The notes beneath the pieces are model-generated. The model worked only from the letters and a program-made list of their open reading frames with translations. It ran no database searches and was not told the DNA's origin. 24,611 nucleotides of DNA. Origin: a virus. Location of the stretch: positions 1-24,611 of IMG/VR virus record IMGVR_UViG_3300009320_000115; one strand, written 5' to 3'. Position numbers and translations under genes: made by a program. Positions 12,687-23,977 of this stretch are shown here, piece after piece; position 1 is the first letter of the stretch, and each line of letters begins with the position of its first letter.

Positions 12687-13031
12687 ATGGATACATATAT
12701 TCAGGGCGAAAGCATCGAACTAACGATCCCCGTTGTTGACGGGAGCGGCGACGCCGTCGATCTTAGCGGGATCGATACAATAGCCGTCGAGATATTTCAT
12801 AGAATCTATAAATCAGTACTCAAATCGGGTACTTATGCAGGGGGGGAGGTCACAAGCGCGGATCTCTCGACGGGGCAATTAAAGATCCATATAGAGGACG
12901 GGTTAACCGCCGCGGCTCAAACAGGGATATATAATTACCTGGTAACCCTTACTCAAACAGATGCTGGCTTTGATGATGACACTAATACCAGTAAAGCTAA
13001 AGATGCTGCCTTTAAACTTGTAGAGAAATGA
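12687..13031 (+). CDS. BppU-like N-terminal domain protein
   Basis: This 114-residue protein resembles the N-terminal domain of lactococcal-phage BppU-type baseplate proteins. It starts with Tyr-Ile-Gln-Gly-Glu-Ser-Ile-Glu-Leu-Thr-Ile-Pro-Val-Val-Asp, then Val-Asp-Leu-Ser-Gly and a strand Ile-Ala-Val-Glu-Ile. In BppU this domain anchors a receptor-binding part to the tail. Here it stands alone and is followed with a 4-bp overlap (ATGA) by the deacetylase lipoprotein. The last 25 codons use GCT, GAT and AAA much more than the rest, suggesting a recombination joint near 12955. Confidence 0.65.
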   Translation: MDTYIQGESIELTIPVVDGSGDAVDLSGIDTIAVEIFHRIYKSVLKSGTYAGGEVTSADLSTGQLKIHIEDGLTAAAQTGIYNYLVTLTQTDAGFDDDTNTSKAKDAAFKLVEK

Positions 13032-15034
13032 GACTTTTTATAAGTATATTATTGATTCTGTTTTTTGTCTCCGCCTCCTGTCAAACAGGCATCAAATCGG
13101 GAACGACGGCGGACTCGGGAACCATAACGACAGGAACGACGGCGGACTCGGGAACCATAACGACGGGAACGACGGCGGACTCGGGAACCATAACGACGGG
13201 AACGACGACAGAATCGGGAACCATTACAACGGGAACAACAACTCTCGGAGCGGTATTTACAGATATCGCGGTTGCTAATTACTATATGAAAGGGGGATAT
13301 TTTCAGCGTATCGACGATCCAATGCTCGGAGACGGTTATTCGGATTCGGTTTATCAAAGACAGAACATAGATACAACCTTAATGATTTGCGAGTCTCACG
13401 ATATTGATAAAATTACATGGGCCGTTGTTACGGAATACCATTTTATCAGCGGGGATACGATCGAACCGTATTCGGGTTTTATGCCTCACAGAGTAACACA
13501 ATTAAACAGACTGGTAAACGCGGGACATCAAATCGCGAATCATTCTGTAAATCATTCGTCAAATTATTATATCTCTCATATTGACAGTTTATGGTCGGAG
13601 GACTCGATACTGGTCGCGGATGGATACGACATATCGGACGGGGTTGACACAATTATTATTAACGACTCGGATACGGCGTTATATACCTGGTACTGGAAGC
13701 ACCAGCCCGACGACCATTACGCCCTCGGAGCCGCGCGAAGGATTATCGATAAGGACGACGATATCGATTCAATTTATATGTACGCGGCCCTCCCCCCGAG
13801 ATCTGTATTTATCGCAACGTATCCAAATCGGTGGGGATTGAAACGTATTATCGACGTATGGAATTACCGCGCGGGACTTGTCGGTTTACCCGAAACGCAT
13901 TTCTTTATAATGCCTGGTCAAGATTATTACCAGGTCGTCGGGATCGATACCCTGTTAAAAGAGGCGAGCGGGTACGTAGAAACGGCGGTCGGGGAGGATA
14001 CGGTAATATTTCACGTTCAAGAGGCATGGAGTTCTAAACCGTACGTAGTTAACAACTATAACAACAACTGGCTCTCAATAGGACCAGGAGATCGGTATCA
14101 AATCGATTATAACGACGTTACGGAGATAGACGATACGACGTTTCATTTCTATTTAACAGGATACACAGGAGACGGGAATAATCACGACGCGGACCTGGTT
14201 CCAAACAAAGGAACTGACTGGATGTGGCAGGTCGAACCCGATACCTTACTCGCCTTACGAGATTCGTTCCCCGATATTCAGGGGTCCTTATACCCCGCGG
14301 GGCGTCAATATATGTCAAAAGGGTATTTTCCTAAATCGGAGGACCAGAAGTTCCCGCAACGGGACAACGACGTATTTATGGACGACGATCACGCGACCGC
14401 GAAACACTCAATCGCGCTCGTCCTGGACGCCGCGTTAAAGCATTATTTTATTGCATCGGATGAACACGGAGGATTTCAGGGGGGATACGCGCGGGTCGAT
14501 AGTTTTTATAATTTCATTATGAACGAACCGTATATTACCACGTATTCGAACCATGATTTACTCGAGAATATGTACTCCGCCGTACCTGACTCCTCGCAAA
14601 ATATTGTCCCTTCAATGGATTTTGATCTAAACGAGGACGACGTATCGGACGCCTGGGAACTGGTCGGGTCCCCGACCTGGTCCACGCTCCCGAGTTCAAT
14701 CGAAAGCACGAATAAATATTTCGAATGTGACGAGAGTAATTACCTGGATAATACTAATATTTGGGCAGTCTCTCCAGGGGTGAATCGTCTTAGCCTCTGG
14801 TTACAAAACGTCGACTCCGACTCTGTAATGGTAGAATTAACGGAACATAGATACCGAGCGAATACCAGTAACCAAACTTACAAAGTATATATCGAGGAGA
14901 AATTCGAACCCGATAGTACATTTACGGAGTATTATTTCGATAGGACCGTCCCGTCGACGACTGATTATATTGATATCAAAATACAACCGTTCGGGGGAAC
15001 CTGTAACGTTGCGAACGTTAAATTTAATCAATGA
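13028..15034 (+). CDS. Lipoprotein-type polysaccharide deacetylase (NodB-like)
   Basis: This 668-residue protein starts with a basic Met-Arg, a hydrophobic core and Ser-Ala-Ser-Cys18-Gln, a signal peptide with a Bacteroidota-type lipidation site. Residues about 25-70 are four 11-residue repeats (Gly-Thr-Thr-Ala-Asp-Ser-Gly-Thr-Ile-Thr-Thr). A NodB-like domain follows: Asp96-Asp97 fits the first motif, and Gly-His-Gln-Ile-Ala-Asn-His172-Ser-Val-Asn-His176 fits the zinc-binding HxxxH motif. The family removes acetyl groups from glycans such as peptidoglycan or capsule. The C-terminal 130 residues look like a beta-sandwich, possibly a CBM. It is odd for a virion protein to carry a signal peptide, so it may be displayed on the infected cell. 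A virion role cannot be excluded. Confidence 0.72.
   Translation: MRLFISILLILFFVSASCQTGIKSGTTADSGTITTGTTADSGTITTGTTADSGTITTGTTTESGTITTGTTTLGAVFTDIAVANYYMKGGYFQRIDDPMLGDGYSDSVYQRQNIDTTLMICESHDIDKITWAVVTEYHFISGDTIEPYSGFMPHRVTQLNRLVNAGHQIANHSVNHSSNYYISHIDSLWSEDSILVADGYDISDGVDTIIINDSDTALYTWYWKHQPDDHYALGAARRIIDKDDDIDSIYMYAALPPRSVFIATYPNRWGLKRIIDVWNYRAGLVGLPETHFFIMPGQDYYQVVGIDTLLKEASGYVETAVGEDTVIFHVQEAWSSKPYVVNNYNNNWLSIGPGDRYQIDYNDVTEIDDTTFHFYLTGYTGDGNNHDADLVPNKGTDWMWQVEPDTLLALRDSFPDIQGSLYPAGRQYMSKGYFPKSEDQKFPQRDNDVFMDDDHATAKHSIALVLDAALKHYFIASDEHGGFQGGYARVDSFYNFIMNEPYITTYSNHDLLENMYSAVPDSSQNIVPSMDFDLNEDDVSDAWELVGSPTWSTLPSSIESTNKYFECDESNYLDNTNIWAVSPGVNRLSLWLQNVDSDSVMVELTEHRYRANTSNQTYKVYIEEKFEPDSTFTEYYFDRTVPSTTDYIDIKIQPFGGTCNVANVKFNQ
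13100..13240 (+). repeat. 33-bp tandem repeat, four units plus a partial unit
   Basis: Units start at 13100, 13133, 13166 and 13199, each with ggaacgacggcggactcggg or a close form. The first three are almost identical, the fourth has several changes, and a partial fifth follows. Each unit codes 11 residues, so gain or loss of units keeps the reading frame. Confidence 0.92.
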
Positions 15035-16268: not shown

Positions 16269-16808
16269 ATGGCACAAAAGAAAGCAACCAGTAAACCAGG
16301 GACCCCGAAAGCGACTCCAAACAAAGCGAGAGCGCAAGCGGTCCAGGAGGCAAAGGACCAGGGGTTCGTCGGAGGGATTGTTATCCATTGCTCCGCGTCT
16401 AATCGTTTAAAACATGATAACGCCGCAACGATCGACGCCTGGCACAAGCGGCGCGGATGGAAAGGGATCGGTTACCACTGGTTTATCCGTAGCGACGGCA
16501 AACTCGAGACGGGTCGCCCGATCGACTCGGATCCGTACCTGGATAAGGACGAGCAAGGCGCGCACGTTCTCGGACATAACCGAACGTATTTCGGGGTTTG
16601 TTTGCATGGGATCGACAAGCGGGATTTTACCCCCGCTCAGTTTAAGACCCTCAAAGATTTGATCGAATCCCAGGTCCTCACGAAAAACAAAGACGCGGAG
16701 ATCCTCGGACATAACTATTTCACTGATAAAAAGACTTGTCCGAATTTCGACTGGAGAGCCTGGGTTAAACTCCATTTCCCGAAAAACTTCCCCGTTGAAA
16801 AAGGTTAA
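16269..16808 (+). CDS. N-acetylmuramoyl-L-alanine amidase (endolysin, T7 lysozyme type)
   Basis: This 179-residue enzyme cuts the bond between N-acetylmuramic acid and L-alanine in peptidoglycan. The Amidase_2 core starts near residue 33. His40 in Val-Ile-His-Cys-Ser-Ala-Ser, His148 in Leu-Gly-His-Asn, and Cys157 in Lys-Thr-Cys-Pro fit the T7 zinc ligands. Tyr69 in Gly-Tyr-His-Trp and Lys155 fit the catalytic pair. The first 30 residues are a Lys/Thr/Pro-rich tail, not a signal peptide, so it needs a holin. It follows the small membrane-protein genes and overlaps a spanin-like gene. Length and motifs are complete, with no extra cell-wall binding domain. Confidence 0.92.
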   Translation: MAQKKATSKPGTPKATPNKARAQAVQEAKDQGFVGGIVIHCSASNRLKHDNAATIDAWHKRRGWKGIGYHWFIRSDGKLETGRPIDSDPYLDKDEQGAHVLGHNRTYFGVCLHGIDKRDFTPAQFKTLKDLIESQVLTKNKDAEILGHNYFTDKKTCPNFDWRAWVKLHFPKNFPVEKG

Positions 16809-17112: not shown

Positions 17113-17144
17113 ATTGACGGATATAATAATTTGCTATATATTTG
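17113..17144 (+). promoter_or_regulatory. Candidate Bacteroidota-type promoter of the polymerase operon
   Basis: ATTG (17113-17116), 20 bp, then TATATTTG (17137-17144) fit the -33 TTG / -7 TAnnTTTG pattern of the Bacteroidota primary sigma factor. It lies in a 162-bp intergenic region, 110 bp before the polymerase-like gene. Confidence 0.55.
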
Positions 17145-17237: not shown

Positions 17238-17253
17238 ACTTAAAATTTAACGT

Positions 17254-18501
17254 ATGACAAAACGCCGCGATAACCTTAATTACTCGTATAACATATACCA
17301 GGAGATCCAGGGGATCCCCAAAACCTCCGACCTGGGAGAGCGGGTAAACATATTCCTAACTGAACTTAATAAGATCTCGCGAATCGTTGACATAACCTTA
17401 CGGTTTACCCCCTCGAGGAACTTTGTTTACTTTAACGCTAATCAACTCCAGGCCCTTTTAAGTCATATCCGATACAAATCCGTAATCCAGGATCTCCAGG
17501 ATAAAGGGGTAATAAGACGAGCTCCTGTTAAATCGAAGTTCCAAACGTTGTTGTATTGTTTCGATCCCCTGTTTATGGATCCGATCGAGACGGGCGTTAA
17601 GATCCGAAACCTCAAAGTACGAAACGGCGTTCGGCGTTACCTCGGGATCCAACAAGACACGGTCGATAAAAACGTCCTCTCCTGGACGCGATCGTCCCTC
17701 CTGGAAACTAAGATCCTGGTAACCGAGGAGATCTTTTTCTCGGACCTGGAGGATAAGTACCGTATTTACCGCCGTTCTAAAACGCTCCAGGGATTGAAGT
17801 ATAAGAACTTCGATAACTACCTGGAGGATCTCGCGAGGAACTATTTCTCTGTTCGGCACTATCAGCAACTCGATAAACAGGAGCGGTCCAGGTACATTAA
17901 ACAGGATACGTTCTCGGGTCGGATCTATACGATCGCGACGGGCGTTCCGAAATGGGTCCGATCGTATGTTCGGATCCAGGGCGAACCTCTCGCGGAAATA
18001 GATATGAGGGCGACACACCCGTACCTTTTATTTCACATCCTGAAAAATACCGACTATATACGTTTCCTTTGGGAGACAACCCTCTCAGGAAAGGATATTT
18101 ACGAGGCGTACGGGGAAAGGATAGGGATAACCGACAGAGCCGCGGTCAAATACCGCTTTTTACGGTCGATCTATGGTCGGATGAATAGTAAGTACTACAA
18201 AGAGTTCAAACAACAGTTTCCCGAGGCGGGTAAAGTAATCGATAATATCAAAACGCGGAACGTACCAGGCAACCCGAGCAAAAAGGGATCATATACGAAC
18301 CTCGCTTATAAAATAATGAATAAGGAGGTTAAGTTATTTCGTAAGGTATGGGAGGGAATGTACCTCGCGGAGATCCCTTTCCTCCCGATCCACGACGGGA
18401 TACTCGTACCCGCCTCGAGGTTATCCGAGTCTCGGGTCCTTATGGAACAGATAATAAAGCGATCGATACCAATAGTACAAACGAGTTTTAGATTCTTGTA
18501 G
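17254..18501 (+). CDS. Minimal family-A polymerase palm protein
   Basis: This 415-residue protein shows the three polymerase motifs of DNA polymerase I / T7 RNA polymerase palms. Motif A is Glu-Ile-Asp250-Met-Arg-Ala-Thr-His255-Pro. Motif B is Arg295-x3-Lys299-x3-Leu-x3-Tyr307-Gly308, the exact spacing of the Klenow O helix. Motif C is Ile-His380-Asp381-Gly382. Asp250 and Asp381 would bind the metals. A Gly-Arg-Ile-Tyr-Thr block (near 220) precedes motif A as in this family. There is no 3'-5' exonuclease domain. The first 150 residues may hold a winged-helix domain. The steric-gate position is His, not the Glu of DNA polymerases, and position 762 (Klenow numbering) is Leu. The product made and template used are unknown. 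It heads an operon of small unknown genes. Confidence 0.72.
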   Translation: MTKRRDNLNYSYNIYQEIQGIPKTSDLGERVNIFLTELNKISRIVDITLRFTPSRNFVYFNANQLQALLSHIRYKSVIQDLQDKGVIRRAPVKSKFQTLLYCFDPLFMDPIETGVKIRNLKVRNGVRRYLGIQQDTVDKNVLSWTRSSLLETKILVTEEIFFSDLEDKYRIYRRSKTLQGLKYKNFDNYLEDLARNYFSVRHYQQLDKQERSRYIKQDTFSGRIYTIATGVPKWVRSYVRIQGEPLAEIDMRATHPYLLFHILKNTDYIRFLWETTLSGKDIYEAYGERIGITDRAAVKYRFLRSIYGRMNSKYYKEFKQQFPEAGKVIDNIKTRNVPGNPSKKGSYTNLAYKIMNKEVKLFRKVWEGMYLAEIPFLPIHDGILVPASRLSESRVLMEQIIKRSIPIVQTSFRFL

Positions 18502-18503
18502 AT

Positions 18504-18560
18504 ATGAAACTGGATTTTCAAGTCTCGGGGGAGGTAATACAGACGTTTGCGGAGCAATGA
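18504..18560 (+). CDS. 18-residue micro-ORF between two coupled genes
   Basis: The ATG lies 2 bp behind the polymerase stop and the TGA overlaps the next start (ATGA). The gene order thus leaves no gap, like other genes in this operon. The peptide (Met-Lys-Leu-Asp-Phe-Gln-Val and so on) is too short to judge. It could be a real leader peptide used for coupling, or chance. Confidence 0.35.
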   Translation: MKLDFQVSGEVIQTFAEQ

Positions 18561-18772
18561 TCGACGAGAATTACATATTGAAACAGGCCGTAAAAGCCGC
18601 GTTTCGATTACCTGAGTACCTTTTCCACGGAATGAACGAGGGCGTACGACTCCCGTTTATTCCGTATCCCCTTGCAACGAACATAGAAATATATTTTTTG
18701 ATCTATAAACCCGAGGAGGGCGAATTGATTTCGATCGAATGTCCCGACGGATCCTTTATCCTCCTCGACTAA
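18557..18772 (+). CDS. Unknown 71-residue protein
   Basis: No family is recognised. The sequence has an N-terminal amphipathic helix (Leu-Lys-Gln-Ala-Val-Lys-Ala-Ala-Phe) and a C-terminal beta part (Ile-Glu-Ile-Tyr-Phe-Leu-Ile-Tyr, then Leu-Ile-Ser-Ile-Glu), with several Pro residues between. It is acidic overall. It starts in overlap with an 18-residue ORF and ends 10 bp before the next gene, so it belongs to the polymerase operon. Codons match the phage. Confidence 0.6.
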   Translation: MIDENYILKQAVKAAFRLPEYLFHGMNEGVRLPFIPYPLATNIEIYFLIYKPEEGELISIECPDGSFILLD

Positions 18773-18782
18773 AATTTAACAC

Positions 18783-19205
18783 ATGGAAAAACAACAGAAA
18801 ATCGAAAAGAAGCTCCGCGAGGCGGAGCGGATTGTTACCGAACTACTAATCGATTACCCGATAACCAGGGACGACGACCGTCTCCTGGTTTGGTTATTCT
18901 GGAGAAAGCAATTCGAGAGGATCGATCGTTATACGCTCGAGATGTTTCGGAGCGCGTTCCTGGGAGGGATGTTATCTCCTCCCGAGACCATTACCCGAGC
19001 GCGGAGAAAGGTCCAGGAGAAACACGAAAATTTAAGGGGGTTAACCTATGGATCCCGCGCGGATCTCCAGGATATTTACTCTCATTATTACGCCTCCTCG
19101 GAGGCCGTACAACAGGATCTTTTCTCGGGCCGTTTTAAGGATATGGCAATCGCGGGATCGATGTACGACCAAATCGTCGGAAAGGGGGTCGAACATGGAT
19201 CTTAA
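18783..19205 (+). CDS. Unknown helical 140-residue protein
   Basis: No family is recognised. The protein is mostly alpha-helical and charged. A first helix (residues about 3-25) is rich in Lys and Glu, and a middle part has Trp-Leu-Phe-Trp-Arg-Lys-Gln-Phe. A segment Ile-Thr-Arg-Ala-Arg-Arg-Lys-Val-Gln-Glu-Lys (near 75) looks like it could bind nucleic acid. Phage genes of this kind are often replication or DNA-binding helpers, but nothing specific supports that here. It overlaps the following gene by 11 bp. Confidence 0.6.
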   Translation: MEKQQKIEKKLREAERIVTELLIDYPITRDDDRLLVWLFWRKQFERIDRYTLEMFRSAFLGGMLSPPETITRARRKVQEKHENLRGLTYGSRADLQDIYSHYYASSEAVQQDLFSGRFKDMAIAGSMYDQIVGKGVEHGS

Positions 19206-19440
19206 AAGACTTGCGGAGGCGAACGTCCTCCAGGAGAAAATCAAGGAACTTACTCGGGTCCTGGACGCGGTTCAGGGACAGACAACAAAGTTCGATATAT
19301 GGGTTAACTCGGAAAGCGGAGACGAGTTCTCGATTAACCATTTAATCCCGATGGATCTCAAAACTCAGATAATCCAGGCCGCGAAAAGCGAACTCGAACT
19401 CGAGTTAAAGAGAGCGGAAAAGAAATTCGCGGACTTATGA
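19195..19440 (+). CDS. Unknown 81-residue coiled-coil protein
   Basis: The ATG at 19195 overlaps the previous gene by 11 bp; an in-frame start upstream at 19048 would lie deep inside that gene and is rejected. Residues 1-24 and 57-80 are strongly helical with heptad-like Leu/Glu/Lys (Leu-Glu-Leu-Glu-Leu-Lys-Arg-Ala-Glu-Lys-Lys). Between them lies a short strand-rich piece with Phe-Asp-Ile-Trp-Val. It overlaps the next gene by 4 bp (ATGA). It may form a complex with its similarly sized neighbour. Confidence 0.65.
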   Translation: MDLKRLAEANVLQEKIKELTRVLDAVQGQTTKFDIWVNSESGDEFSINHLIPMDLKTQIIQAAKSELELELKRAEKKFADL

Positions 19441-19727
19441 AAGCGTTAAAGATAATACGCGATAACGCGCGGAAACGTCGGGAGGTCAAAAACGACCTTA
19501 CAACGGCGGAATATCGGTTGCAAAGCGTATCGATCGTATACAAGGCCCTCGAGGATCCCGATACATACGATCTATTTATCGCAACGAATGAACCAGGGCA
19601 AGGGTCGTTCGTATGCAACCTTAAACCCTCTATTGCGAAACAGATCCGTAAAGTAATTCTCGAGGATCTCGATAAGACAATTAACGCGGAACTTGCGTTT
19701 ATTCACGATTTAAGATCTCAGTTATGA
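19437..19727 (+). CDS. Unknown 96-residue protein
   Basis: No family is recognised. It has a basic N-terminal helix (Arg-Asp-Asn-Ala-Arg-Lys-Arg-Arg), then Leu-Phe-Ile-Ala-Thr-Asn-Glu-Pro-Gly-Gln-Gly near residue 46 and an amphipathic C-terminal helix (Ile-Arg-Lys-Val-Ile-Leu-Glu-Asp-Leu). Its layout (helix, short strand part, helix) resembles the previous 81-residue protein, and they may be distant paralogues. Starts and stops overlap by 4 bp on both sides. Confidence 0.62.
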   Translation: MKALKIIRDNARKRREVKNDLTTAEYRLQSVSIVYKALEDPDTYDLFIATNEPGQGSFVCNLKPSIAKQIRKVILEDLDKTINAELAFIHDLRSQL

Positions 19728-20239
19728 AACATCTAAGTATAAATATCGGAGTAATACCAGGGACAACGAACCATATTTACGCCGCGGGGATCCGCAAGGT
19801 CCCCGACTGGAAAGCAACAGGAGGAGAGTACGTCCCCGAAACAGTCAAAGGGATTCTCCAGGTATGTTTTAACTGTAAAGAACCGATCGTCCCGTTGAGG
19901 GGAGCGTATTTCGTCGGAGAGACGGTTACTTGCGATCGTTGCGGAGAGGCGTTTACTGTTTCCGGGCGGTTCGGGTTTATGGAACTCCGCTTAACGGCGG
20001 ATATCTCGAGGGCGTACCAGGTTCTCCGATTCCTGGAACGCCTGGTACGTTATCGGAGCGGGTTTAACGGATCTCAGATCCTCTATTTCGATAAAGAGGT
20101 TACCGCGGAGCGTTATTCGGAAATACTCTTAAATTGTGGATCCTCCGTATCCTGGTACGGGGATAGCATTGTTTGTGGTCGGGTCCCTGAAATGGACCTT
20201 ATAATCGAGGGCGACGAGATGTTCGCCGTATCAAAGTAA
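19724..20239 (+). CDS. Zinc-ribbon protein of unknown function
   Basis: This 171-residue protein has two CxxC pairs: Cys48-Phe-Asn-Cys51 and Cys70-Asp-Arg-Cys73. These can hold one zinc as a ribbon between two mixed alpha/beta parts. The N-terminal part has Leu-Ser-Ile-Asn-Ile-Gly-Val. The C-terminal part has a helix with Ala-Tyr-Gln-Val-Leu-Arg-Phe-Leu-Glu-Arg-Leu. Zinc ribbons often contact DNA, RNA or the transcription machinery; no closer call is possible. It overlaps the 96-residue gene by 4 bp and closes the intact part of the operon. Confidence 0.65.
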   Translation: MKHLSINIGVIPGTTNHIYAAGIRKVPDWKATGGEYVPETVKGILQVCFNCKEPIVPLRGAYFVGETVTCDRCGEAFTVSGRFGFMELRLTADISRAYQVLRFLERLVRYRSGFNGSQILYFDKEVTAERYSEILLNCGSSVSWYGDSIVCGRVPEMDLIIEGDEMFAVSK

Positions 20240-20467: not shown

Positions 20468-21523
20468 ATGATAGTAAAAGAAAAAAAGGGAGGGCAATTT
20501 TTTGAATTAATAAAAGGGGATTGCCTTATTGAAAACGAACATATAGAAGATGGAAGTGTTGACCTTATTTTAACTGATTTGCCTTATGGTAATATGAAAA
20601 CCATTAAAAATCCACAAAGACCTAAAAGTTGGGGAAAAGAAGGTTATTTAGGTTGGGACAATGTTATTGATACAAATGAGATTTATAAGATAGCAAATAG
20701 AATACTACGTAAAAATGGTAAGATGATTTTATTTGCGCAACAACCTTTTACAACTGAACTAATAAATAAAGCAATACTCAATATACCATTTAGTTATTCT
20801 ATGATTTGGGAGAAAAATGACTTTGCAAATTGCTTGCTTGCTAAAAAAGCACCTGTAAGTTATTTTGAAGATATTTTGATTTATAGTAAAGACCAATGTT
20901 ACACTTCTAAGCATCCTTTAAGAGAAATAATGCTAACTTACGTTGAGCAATATGGAAAAGATTATTTGATTAACTTATTTTTAAAAGAAGGGAGATATAC
21001 AAGCGAACTTTCTGCAAGAGTACACGCTTCTTATAAATTTGCTTTTAATAAAGGAATGCGATTCGATTTAATGGATTATAAGCTATATGAATTTTTATCT
21101 AAGCATATAGAATTTAAACACACTTATCAATGGTTGCAAAGTATAGATATTGAATATAAGAATAAGTTTGCAAGCGTCTTTAACCTTTGGGAAGGTAAAA
21201 AATACAAAAGCAATATTCTGAAATATAAAAAGGATTATGGTGGACACCACCCAACTCAAAAACCTGTTTTATTGCTTGAAGATTTAATAAAGACCTTTAG
21301 CAATAAAAATGATTTAGTAGTTGATTTGACTATGGGAAGCGGAAGCACAGGAGTAGCAGCAATGAATACAAACCGCAATTTTATAGGTATTGAAAAAGAC
21401 GACAAATATTTTAATATAGCAGTAAACAGAATTAAAGGGACTGAACCAAACCACAACAACTTTGAAAAAGTTGAGGCGTGGGGGCTTTTTTCTTTTACGG
21501 ATGATACGCAGAAAGCTGATTAA
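20468..21523 (+). CDS. DNA methyltransferase, beta-class (N4/N6 type)
   Basis: This 351-residue enzyme probably moves a methyl group from S-adenosylmethionine to adenine N6 or cytosine N4 in DNA. The catalytic motif IV is Thr-Asp37-Leu-Pro-Tyr40-Gly near the N-terminus. The AdoMet site is at the C-terminus: Val-Asp286-Leu-Thr-Met-Gly-Ser-Gly-Ser-Thr-Gly, then Phe-Ile-Gly-Ile-Glu-Lys. Catalytic motif first and AdoMet motif last is the beta-class order. The segment His-His-Pro-Thr-Gln-Lys-Pro precedes the AdoMet site as usual. Residues about 130-235 are the likely target-recognition part. Base composition differs sharply from the phage genes, so it was acquired. No restriction enzyme gene is adjacent. 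The target sequence cannot be predicted. Confidence 0.9.
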   Translation: MIVKEKKGGQFFELIKGDCLIENEHIEDGSVDLILTDLPYGNMKTIKNPQRPKSWGKEGYLGWDNVIDTNEIYKIANRILRKNGKMILFAQQPFTTELINKAILNIPFSYSMIWEKNDFANCLLAKKAPVSYFEDILIYSKDQCYTSKHPLREIMLTYVEQYGKDYLINLFLKEGRYTSELSARVHASYKFAFNKGMRFDLMDYKLYEFLSKHIEFKHTYQWLQSIDIEYKNKFASVFNLWEGKKYKSNILKYKKDYGGHHPTQKPVLLLEDLIKTFSNKNDLVVDLTMGSGSTGVAAMNTNRNFIGIEKDDKYFNIAVNRIKGTEPNHNNFEKVEAWGLFSFTDDTQKAD

Positions 21524-21676: not shown

Positions 21677-22345
21677 ATGAGTAAGATAGAAATAACAAAC
21701 GAAGATAATATGAAACTAATGGCAAGGTATGAAGATAATTACTTTGACCTTGCTATTGTAGACCCACCTTATGGTATTGATGCTGGTTTTGGCAGTGGAA
21801 AAAATATGCGCAAAAGAATAAAAGACGGAAAAATGAAAGGCTCTGATTGGGATAGTGAAACACCTAAAAAAGAATATTGGGATGAATTATTTAGAGTTAG
21901 TAAAAACCAAATTGTTTGGGGAGGAAATTATATGACTTCTTTTTTAAAAGAAAGTAAAGGATGGATATTTTGGGATAAAATACAAACATCTGATAATCAT
22001 TCTGATGGCGAATTAGCTTGGACTTCTTTTCAAAAAAGATTGAGAATGTTTAAATATTGTTGGGCTGGAAATATATATGGATTTCAGGGAAGTATTGAGG
22101 GTGCGGGTAAAAAATCTATTAGAATACACCCAACTGAAAAACCAGTAAAATTATACGAATGGCTTTTAGATGAATATGCAGAAAAAGGCAATAAAATAAT
22201 TGATACTCATTTAGGAAGTGGAAGCATTGCGATTGCCTGCCATAATAGAGGTTTTGATTTAGTTGCTTGCGAATTAGACGAAGACTATTGTAAACAAGCC
22301 TTAAAACGGCTTAAAACGCACCAACAACAACTGACAATGTTTTAG
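21677..22345 (+). CDS. DNA adenine-type methyltransferase, beta-class
   Basis: This 222-residue enzyme has Asp29-Pro-Pro-Tyr32-Gly (motif IV) at the N-terminus. Asp176-Thr-His-Leu-Gly-Ser-Gly-Ser (AdoMet site) and Cys-Glu-Leu-Asp-Glu-Asp-Tyr lie at the C-terminus, with His-Pro-Thr-Glu-Lys-Pro between. It also holds Phe-Arg-Val-Ser-Lys-Asn-Gln-Ile-Val-Trp-Gly-Gly-Asn-Tyr, common in small methyltransferases carried by Bacteroidota phages. The recognition part is short, so the target is probably short. Its codon use is as AT-rich as the first methyltransferase, which it follows by about 150 bp. It is only distantly similar to that gene, so it is not a recent duplicate. No cognate nuclease is seen. 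Confidence 0.9.
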   Translation: MSKIEITNEDNMKLMARYEDNYFDLAIVDPPYGIDAGFGSGKNMRKRIKDGKMKGSDWDSETPKKEYWDELFRVSKNQIVWGGNYMTSFLKESKGWIFWDKIQTSDNHSDGELAWTSFQKRLRMFKYCWAGNIYGFQGSIEGAGKKSIRIHPTEKPVKLYEWLLDEYAEKGNKIIDTHLGSGSIAIACHNRGFDLVACELDEDYCKQALKRLKTHQQQLTMF

Positions 22346-23461: not shown

Positions 23462-23628
23462 CTTTTTACAGTATAAGGAGTTTTACATTTAAAGCAGTCC
23501 TTTCCGAAATGGAGATCCCTTTCCTCGATAGGATCGAAGTAAGTACCCTCGTTCGGGTTGAACTCAATACCGACCATATCGCAATCGGGATTGTTACATT
23601 CGATTAACTTACGCTTGTCCTGGTTCAT
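23458..23628 (-). CDS. Small zinc-ribbon protein
   Basis: This 56-residue reading frame starts at the ATG complementary to 23626-23628. It overlaps the end of the sigma-like gene by 20 bp and its TGA overlaps the HNH GTG start. Cys11-Asn-Asn-Pro-Asp-Cys16 and Cys45-Phe-Lys-Cys48 form two zinc-binding knuckles. The middle has Phe-Asp-Pro-Ile-Glu-Glu-Arg. The tight overlaps on both sides and the Cys pattern support a real gene. Its partner or target is unknown; a transcription or DNA-binding helper is plausible. Confidence 0.7.
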   Translation of the reverse strand: MNQDKRKLIECNNPDCDMVGIEFNPNEGTYFDPIEERDLHFGKDCFKCKTPYTVKR

Positions 23629-23977
23629 CCTGTTCAATAATTTTGGTTATCTTCTTTTTAAAGTCTCTCCGCCTGTTCGACGATACCAAGTAATTAACCG
23701 TCGCGTTACGGATCTTTATATATAGATAGTTCTTAATCGATCGGATCCCGTTACCCTGGTTCTCAAAGCCTGGTATAACCTTTAAGTATAATTCCTGTTT
23801 AAGATCCTTTAAGAACTCCTCGTCCTCCCGATGGATCCTTAAGGTTAAAAAGACGCCGTTTATCATATCCTCGATAAAGGGTTGTATGTCGTCTCGGAAT
23901 ACTCGGGAACGTTCGGGATCCGTCTCCTCGAGGCTTTTATATAGGCTTATCCCCTCAATTAACCTTTGTTGATCCAT
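23609..23977 (-). CDS. Sigma-70 region-2-like protein
   Basis: This 122-residue protein resembles region 2 of sigma-70 factors. Residues about 52-67 (Glu-Asp-Glu-Glu-Phe-Leu-Lys-Asp-Leu-Lys-Gln-Glu-Leu-Tyr-Leu-Lys) fit the first helices that bind the RNA polymerase beta' clamp. A Phe-Glu-Asn-Gln-Gly loop follows. Residues about 80-103 (Ile-Lys-Asn-Tyr-Leu-Tyr-Ile-Lys-Ile-Arg-Asn, then Asn-Arg-Arg-Arg) fit the -10-binding helix. Region 4 is absent, as in T4 gp55-type late sigma factors. It is the second gene of a leftward operon. A function as late-gene activator is an inference. Confidence 0.6.
   Translation of the reverse strand: MDQQRLIEGISLYKSLEETDPERSRVFRDDIQPFIEDMINGVFLTLRIHREDEEFLKDLKQELYLKVIPGFENQGNGIRSIKNYLYIKIRNATVNYLVSSNRRRDFKKKITKIIEQDEPGQA

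Follow-up and report, generated by a model that had tools for sequence, protein, structure and literature searches.

A small, divergent family-A-type polymerase shared by phages and mobile elements: a candidate primase-polymerase

What might a polymerase of only 415 residues, devoid of exonuclease and encoded just after the lysis genes of a phage, be used for? The question was raised by one gene of IMG/VR virus record IMGVR_UViG_3300009320_000115, whose 24,611 bases, hereafter the window, are the whole stretch of DNA analysed and are probably a fragment. The left part of the window is a tailed-phage structural region, with genes for a head protease, a major head protein, a tape measure and a major tail protein. 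An earlier note had recognised in the protein a family-A palm whose gate residue resembled that of neither DNA nor RNA polymerases, and had proposed three activities for it: primer making, template-free nucleotide transfer or RNA-directed polymerisation. The gene and its surroundings are as follows.

16269 to 16808, plus strand: N-acetylmuramoyl-L-alanine amidase, lysis gene upstream (PF01510, E 3.5e-13; PHROG 822)
17114 to 17144, plus strand: Bacteroidota-type promoter-like site, TTG-N20-TATATTTG, in the 162-bp gap before the polymerase gene
17254 to 18501, plus strand: family-A-like polymerase of 415 aa, PHROG 4756, TV-Pol-like
18557 to 20239, plus strand: five small downstream genes of 71, 140, 81, 96 and 171 aa

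The polymerase ORF (17254-18501) begins with ATG and has no internal stop. As it follows the amidase gene, the position after lysis genes given in the earlier note is correct, and so is its description of the downstream genes as small and without assigned function, as neither Pfam nor PHROGs returned an informative family for them. An E. coli sigma-70 promoter before the gene was rejected, such sites being no more frequent than by chance (4 counted, for 5.5 expected), whereas the Bacteroidota-type promoter-like site is present in the gap, and 3 sites of this form were counted in the window on both strands, for about 0.3 expected.

Some other features of the window were recorded. At the DNA level its matches were few, confined to flavobacterial phages and located around methylase genes; two adjacent DNA methyltransferase genes (20468-21523 and 21677-22345) include short stretches with 84-95% DNA identity to these phages. 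The AT-rich TAAAATTTAAC is found nearly identical at 17240-17253 and 18771-18782, in each case directly 5' of a start codon: that of the polymerase gene in the first, that of ORF 18783-19205 in the second. A small protein encoded on the minus strand (23612-23977) has a weak match to sigma-70 region 2 (E 0.0038, under the curated cut-off), and a 668-aa protein (13028-15034), in which tandem repeats of TTADSGTITTG occur close to the N-terminus, has no PHROG match. No integrase or resolvase was seen in the window fragment.

The window protein matched no family of Pfam or NCBIfam. Searches of viral and genome contigs with its sequence alone found no relatives, its divergence being such that alignments are required, and a search against the sequences of solved structures gave chance matches only. 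PHROG 4756, a family labelled 'unknown function', did match it with a profile E of 3.8e-7. This family contains gp65 of Vibrio phage HNL01 and UZS00904 of Pseudomonas phage M1. Its first relatives to be collected came from a Neorhizobium plasmid and from phages, followed by about 250 phage records, among which are ORF100 of Vibrio phage ICP1, the Rheinheimera Barba phages and many Vibrio and Aeromonas phages. Several of the Vibrio and Aeromonas phages have two or three family-matching places each. Alignment-based scans added 47 viral contigs and more than 100 bacterial contigs, mostly alphaproteobacterial, and plasmid searches for family members yielded three records only. With these additions, PHROG 4756 grew to an alignment of about 100 proteins, contributed by phages, by satellite-like elements of 10 kb and by mobile elements of bacteria.

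Identity between the window protein and its relatives ranges from 14 to 24%. A family profile built by leaving it out nevertheless scored it at 67.6 bits (E 5e-23, for one sequence), against 7.2 bits for the best of 500 shuffled versions, and its terminal branch is the longest in the tree made from the palm region (2.5, for a median of 0.57). Judged by this score and this branch, the window protein is a true but very divergent member of the PHROG 4756 family, and the impression of an isolated oddity left by the earlier note has to be abandoned: the family is widespread.

Conservation was counted on 103 aligned family members, including the window protein, in which the following elements were located.

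17332 to 17562, plus strand: N-terminal winged-helix-like region, residues about 27-103, same order of helices and strands in both AlphaFold2 models
17563 to 17727, plus strand: variable linker, residues about 104-158, low confidence (pLDDT 24-39)
17917 to 17928, plus strand: G222-R223-I-Y225 with the beta-hairpin Arg, R223 in 103/103
18001 to 18018, plus strand: motif A, from D250 (18001-18003; D in 102/103) to the gate residue H255 (18016-18018)
18094 to 18102, plus strand: fingers D281-x-Y283, D in 91/103 and Y in 101/103
18136 to 18177, plus strand: motif B (O helix), R295-x3-K299-x3-L303-x3-Y307-G308, R in 100/103 and K in 103/103
18391 to 18399, plus strand: motif C, H380-D381-G382, H and D in 102/103

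Every residue named in the earlier note (D250, H255, R295, K299, L303, Y307-G308 and H380-D381) is present, and the key ones are kept in the homologues as well: D250 and D381 in 102/103 each, K299 in all. Arg236 is likewise found in 103/103 members. The G222-R223-I-Y225 element is the equivalent of the Thr-Gly-Arg of Pol I, by profile alignment, and of the Gly-Arg-x-Tyr of T7 RNA polymerase. The pocket is more variable. At gate position 255, His occurs in 85 members, Gln in 9, Glu, Phe and Ser in 2 each, and Trp, Met and Asn are also seen; Gly occurs in none of the 103. Position 307, which corresponds to Tyr766 of Pol I, is Asn in 93/103 and Tyr in 4, including the window protein, whose motif B reads R295-AAV-K299-YRF-L303-RSI-Y307-G308, unlike most members of PHROG 4756, which have Asn-Ala at this place. 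Combining both positions, 79 members have a His-Asn pair, 3 (the window protein among them) a His-Tyr pair, and 1 the Pol I-like Glu-Tyr pair. The third position of motif C is Ser in 96 of the 103 and Gly in 3, the window protein being one of the latter.

The distance of 131 residues between the two catalytic Asp was measured as the earlier note had given it, and is indeed shorter than in Klenow (177) or T7 RNA polymerase (275), the latter two values agreeing with the alignment numbering (D705/D882 and D537/D812). It is not special, however: across the family this distance ranges from 113 to 174, so that 131 is ordinary. In a Pseudodesulfovibrio MAG, two family members are in tandem; the first (L123:5755-7092) has lost both catalytic Asp, replaced by Gly and Glu, and the second (L123:7341-8675) keeps both. 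Could the window protein be, as this first copy may be, a catalytically dead relic that only binds DNA? That no branch of the tree is longer than its own would agree with such a fate, but every catalytic residue is kept in it, and we regard this explanation as highly improbable.

A structure prediction and a fold search, proposed in the earlier note, were carried out. The AlphaFold2 model of the window protein, built from 88 sequences, has a mean pLDDT of 66.9; in the palm and fingers most values lie within 72-95, with a drop to 57-58 for residues 331-350. The AlphaFold model of a relative, L029, is better (pLDDT 92.1, pTM 0.88). For both models, family-A DNA polymerases occupied the top ranks of Foldseek. 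The window model aligned to the apicoplast Pol (VIA) with a Z of 13.4 (225 aligned residues, rmsd 4.2), to T7 DNA polymerase, Taq and Klenow with a Z of about 12-13, and to yeast mitochondrial RNA polymerase with a Z of 12.0. No reverse-transcriptase fold was among the fold matches listed, and the closest predicted viral structures were mostly unnamed phage proteins of the same size as the window protein.

Profile-profile alignment gave a concordant picture. Alignments by hhalign with five-sequence reference sets were weak, and larger sets gave significant values: against 25 Pol I-type sequences, the family profile aligned over 183 columns with an E of 2.2e-6, with the hairpin Arg and motifs A, B and C in order. 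For comparison, the Pol I-type and T7-type RNA polymerase sets aligned to each other in the same way with an E of 0.19. From the Pol I profile match and the family-A folds, it follows that the family is a branch of the family-A superfamily, and the window protein, in descent as in fold, is almost certainly a polymerase of the family-A type. The central claim of the earlier note, an exonuclease-less family-A palm with a gate like neither that of DNA polymerases nor that of RNA polymerases, is thus supported by the fold, by the profile alignment and by conservation. Neither outcome that this note had set as a refutation was seen, the homologues having kept Asp250, Asp381 and Lys299 and the fold being matched by family A. 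With DNA polymerase I (PF00476) it shares the fold of palm and fingers and the register of motifs A, B and C. It differs from it by its His gate, by its Asp pair (131 residues apart instead of 177) and by the lack of any exonuclease or other Pfam domain; at the curated score, PF00476 matched neither the window protein nor any other place in the window.

A small single-subunit RNA polymerase, making transcripts or RNA primers after its winged helix has recognised promoter or origin DNA, would account for several T7-type (PF00940) traits: the Gly-Arg-x-Tyr element, the Asp-x-Tyr of the fingers, the His-Asp-Ser-Phe that most relatives have as motif C, and weak Pfam RNA_pol matches. The L029 model adds to these, as its Z of 14-15 was the same to DNA polymerases as to mitochondrial and T7 RNA polymerases (about 15 for the latter). 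But the Gly gate of RNA polymerases is found in 0/103 members, the window protein having His255, and its motif C has Gly instead of Ser. Moreover, the alignment of the family to 41 T7-type RNA polymerases was limited to motif C (E 1.4e-3), when that to Pol I covered the whole palm, and T7-type enzymes are far larger. Based on their sequences, the family members are therefore nearer to DNA polymerases overall, with RNA-polymerase-like GRxY, DxY and, in most of them, HDSF motifs, and an RNA polymerase is quite unlikely.

Ahead of the palm, the N-terminal part was modelled in both the window protein and L029 with the order helix-helix-strand-strand of a winged helix, and the corresponding part of the family profile had weak matches to the winged helices of PadR, MarR and AspA (E 0.03-0.9). 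Structure and profile matches, too weak for a family name, are only suggestive of a winged helix.

The surroundings of the relatives' genes were then considered. Of the 135 loci, 36 have a tyrosine integrase nearby and 20 a serine recombinase. In bacteria, the family gene has three kinds of setting: next to integrases and resolvases, next to a Rep_3 initiator, or by itself in small elements bearing a capsid gene. One of these elements, L026, is a record of 9.9 kb; because of its 127-bp end repeat it is probably a circle, of 9.8 kb. It has terminase, portal, protease and capsid genes, and the family gene is the sole replication-like gene seen in it. Similar 10-kb elements recur in Rhodobacterales: like L026, L029, L033 and L075 are about 10 kb long and encode an HK97-type capsid, portal, protease and terminase, with no tail genes seen. 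These four are possibly capsid-forming satellites of Rhodobacterales. Two other capsid-bearing contigs, L043 and L048, look like phage-plasmids; a Rep_3 plasmid initiator gene (L043:607-1422 and L048:4976-5782) lies just upstream of the polymerase gene (L043:2079-3209 and L048:5866-6993). Finally, in L056:1-9075 a 4.66-kb unit comprising an integrase and the family gene is repeated in tandem, as expected of a concatemer or of a circular small element.

Large phages offer a different situation. Of 12 phage records with a family member, 11 have in addition a longer DNA polymerase of family A, so that the family member is not the replicase of these phages, and the role of replicative DNA polymerase was rejected for the relatives. 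In Barba5A, annotated primase and polymerase genes lie near the family member; besides ORF100, ICP1 has a primase/helicase (ORF57) and a polymerase (ORF58). Toprim_2 was found in 7 of the 12 phages, and a DnaG zinc-ribbon in none of them. An accessory, primer-dependent DNA polymerase that fills gaps, repairs or bypasses lesions but does not prime would fit phages already endowed with a replicase and often a primase, as it would fit an enzyme whose nearest profile is DNA polymerase I, whose gate is bulky in nearly all members and which has no exonuclease. It would not readily explain why the family gene is the only replication-like one seen in satellite-like elements and follows Rep_3 in others, nor the winged-helix-like N-terminus, which suggests a recognition of DNA beyond the primer terminus. 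We consider this alternative unlikely.

The primase-polymerase reading draws on known enzymes. The transposon-virus polymerases (TV-Pol; Iyer et al. 2008, PMC2579912) were predicted to be primase-polymerases from their context. They comprise a beta-hairpin with an invariant Arg, a palm Asp pair, fingers with an Asp and RxxxK, and a thumb made of a two-helix coiled-coil, without nuclease, and they neighbour an integrase, a resolvase or a D5 helicase on mobile elements (PMC2579912). Our family is similar in size, in its hairpin Arg (R223, 103/103; flanked by strands in both models), in its palm Asp pair, in its fingers D281 and RxxxK, in the integrase or resolvase neighbourhoods of some of the relatives' loci and in overlapping host genera. 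No nuclease is present either, be it in the window protein, by Pfam, or in the list of 25 families obtained for 88 members. A difference exists: the N-terminal domain of TV-Pol was described as all-helical, when here it is modelled as winged-helix-like. As to the thumb, a single long helix precedes the hairpin in the models (157-175 in L029, 184-196 in the window protein). The whole genome of Microcystis phage Ma-LMM01 had no match to the family profile. The window protein thus fits a TV-Pol-like type set by anatomy and neighbours, rather than by a sequence match to a named TV-Pol.

CCPol-MP of SCC elements, the sole TV-Pol member tested, makes DNA primers de novo with a preference for dNTPs (PMC7581432), and related PolA-SSB primase pairs are common in Bacillota (PMC10061031). 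Like them, the members of the present family are family-A polymerases that lack an exonuclease and are encoded on mobile elements, close to recombinase genes. In CCPol, the gate Glu and the O-helix Phe of Pol I are retained, and the enzyme acts together with an OB-fold partner (PMC7581432), in contrast with His255, Leu303 and a fused winged-helix-like part in the window protein. As the family mostly has His with Asn or Leu where CCPol has Glu and Phe, the substrate preference cannot be transferred from one to the other; dNTPs would be the probable substrate because the gate is bulky.

Priming by CCPol-MP, TV-Pol-like anatomy and mobile-element context, together with the family gene as sole replication-like gene of L026 and the upstream Rep_3 genes of L043 and L048, make a primase-polymerase the best reading for the window protein, one that we hold with about even confidence. 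Of the three activities of the earlier note, primer making is therefore favoured by context and literature, and nothing particular speaks for the other two. A template-free nucleotidyltransferase could recall the terminal transferase activity that CCPol-MP has to some extent (PMC7581432), but like an RNA-directed polymerase it is very unlikely in view of the complete fingers motifs and of the conserved Arg223, which contacts the template strand in the superfamily (PMC2579912). Counting against the primase-polymerase reading, large phages usually have another primase (ICP1 ORF57; Toprim_2 in 7/12), so that a primer-maker would be redundant there.

Under the primase-polymerase reading, the protein would be a minimal family-A polymerase in which a winged-helix-like DNA-binding part precedes a palm and short fingers, without exonuclease. 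The N-terminal part would hold template or origin DNA, Asp250 and Asp381 would perform two-metal catalysis, and Arg295 and Lys299 would grip the incoming nucleotide triphosphate; a new strand would be started and briefly extended. By analogy with CCPol-MP, and from context, de novo initiation and a priming role are what we infer for the family. In the phage of the window, the enzyme would then be an accessory or specialised primer-maker, not the main replicase. A bolder proposal, which we put forward as tentative and somewhat doubtful, is that of a third family-A branch, as distinct as Pol I is from T7 RNA polymerase, starting strands de novo with a built-in winged helix, selecting sugars by a His-Asn (here His-Tyr) pocket instead of Glu-Tyr or Gly-Tyr, and providing many satellites and integrative elements with the enzyme that primes them.

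To our knowledge, proven primases beyond the DnaG and archaeo-eukaryotic classes are few, one of them being CCPol-MP, of family A. The kind of enzyme described here is thus already known. Its His-Asn (here His-Tyr) pocket, its fused winged-helix-like part and its occurrence both in satellite-like elements and in large phages were not described in the open-licence literature searched. The family is large, spread over phages, satellite-like and integrative elements, has no Pfam name and has an altered sugar-selection pocket. It bears on how widespread family-A priming is, and on how the choice between DNA and RNA has evolved in the superfamily. As the well-studied phage ICP1 carries a member, ORF100, a genetic approach is practical.
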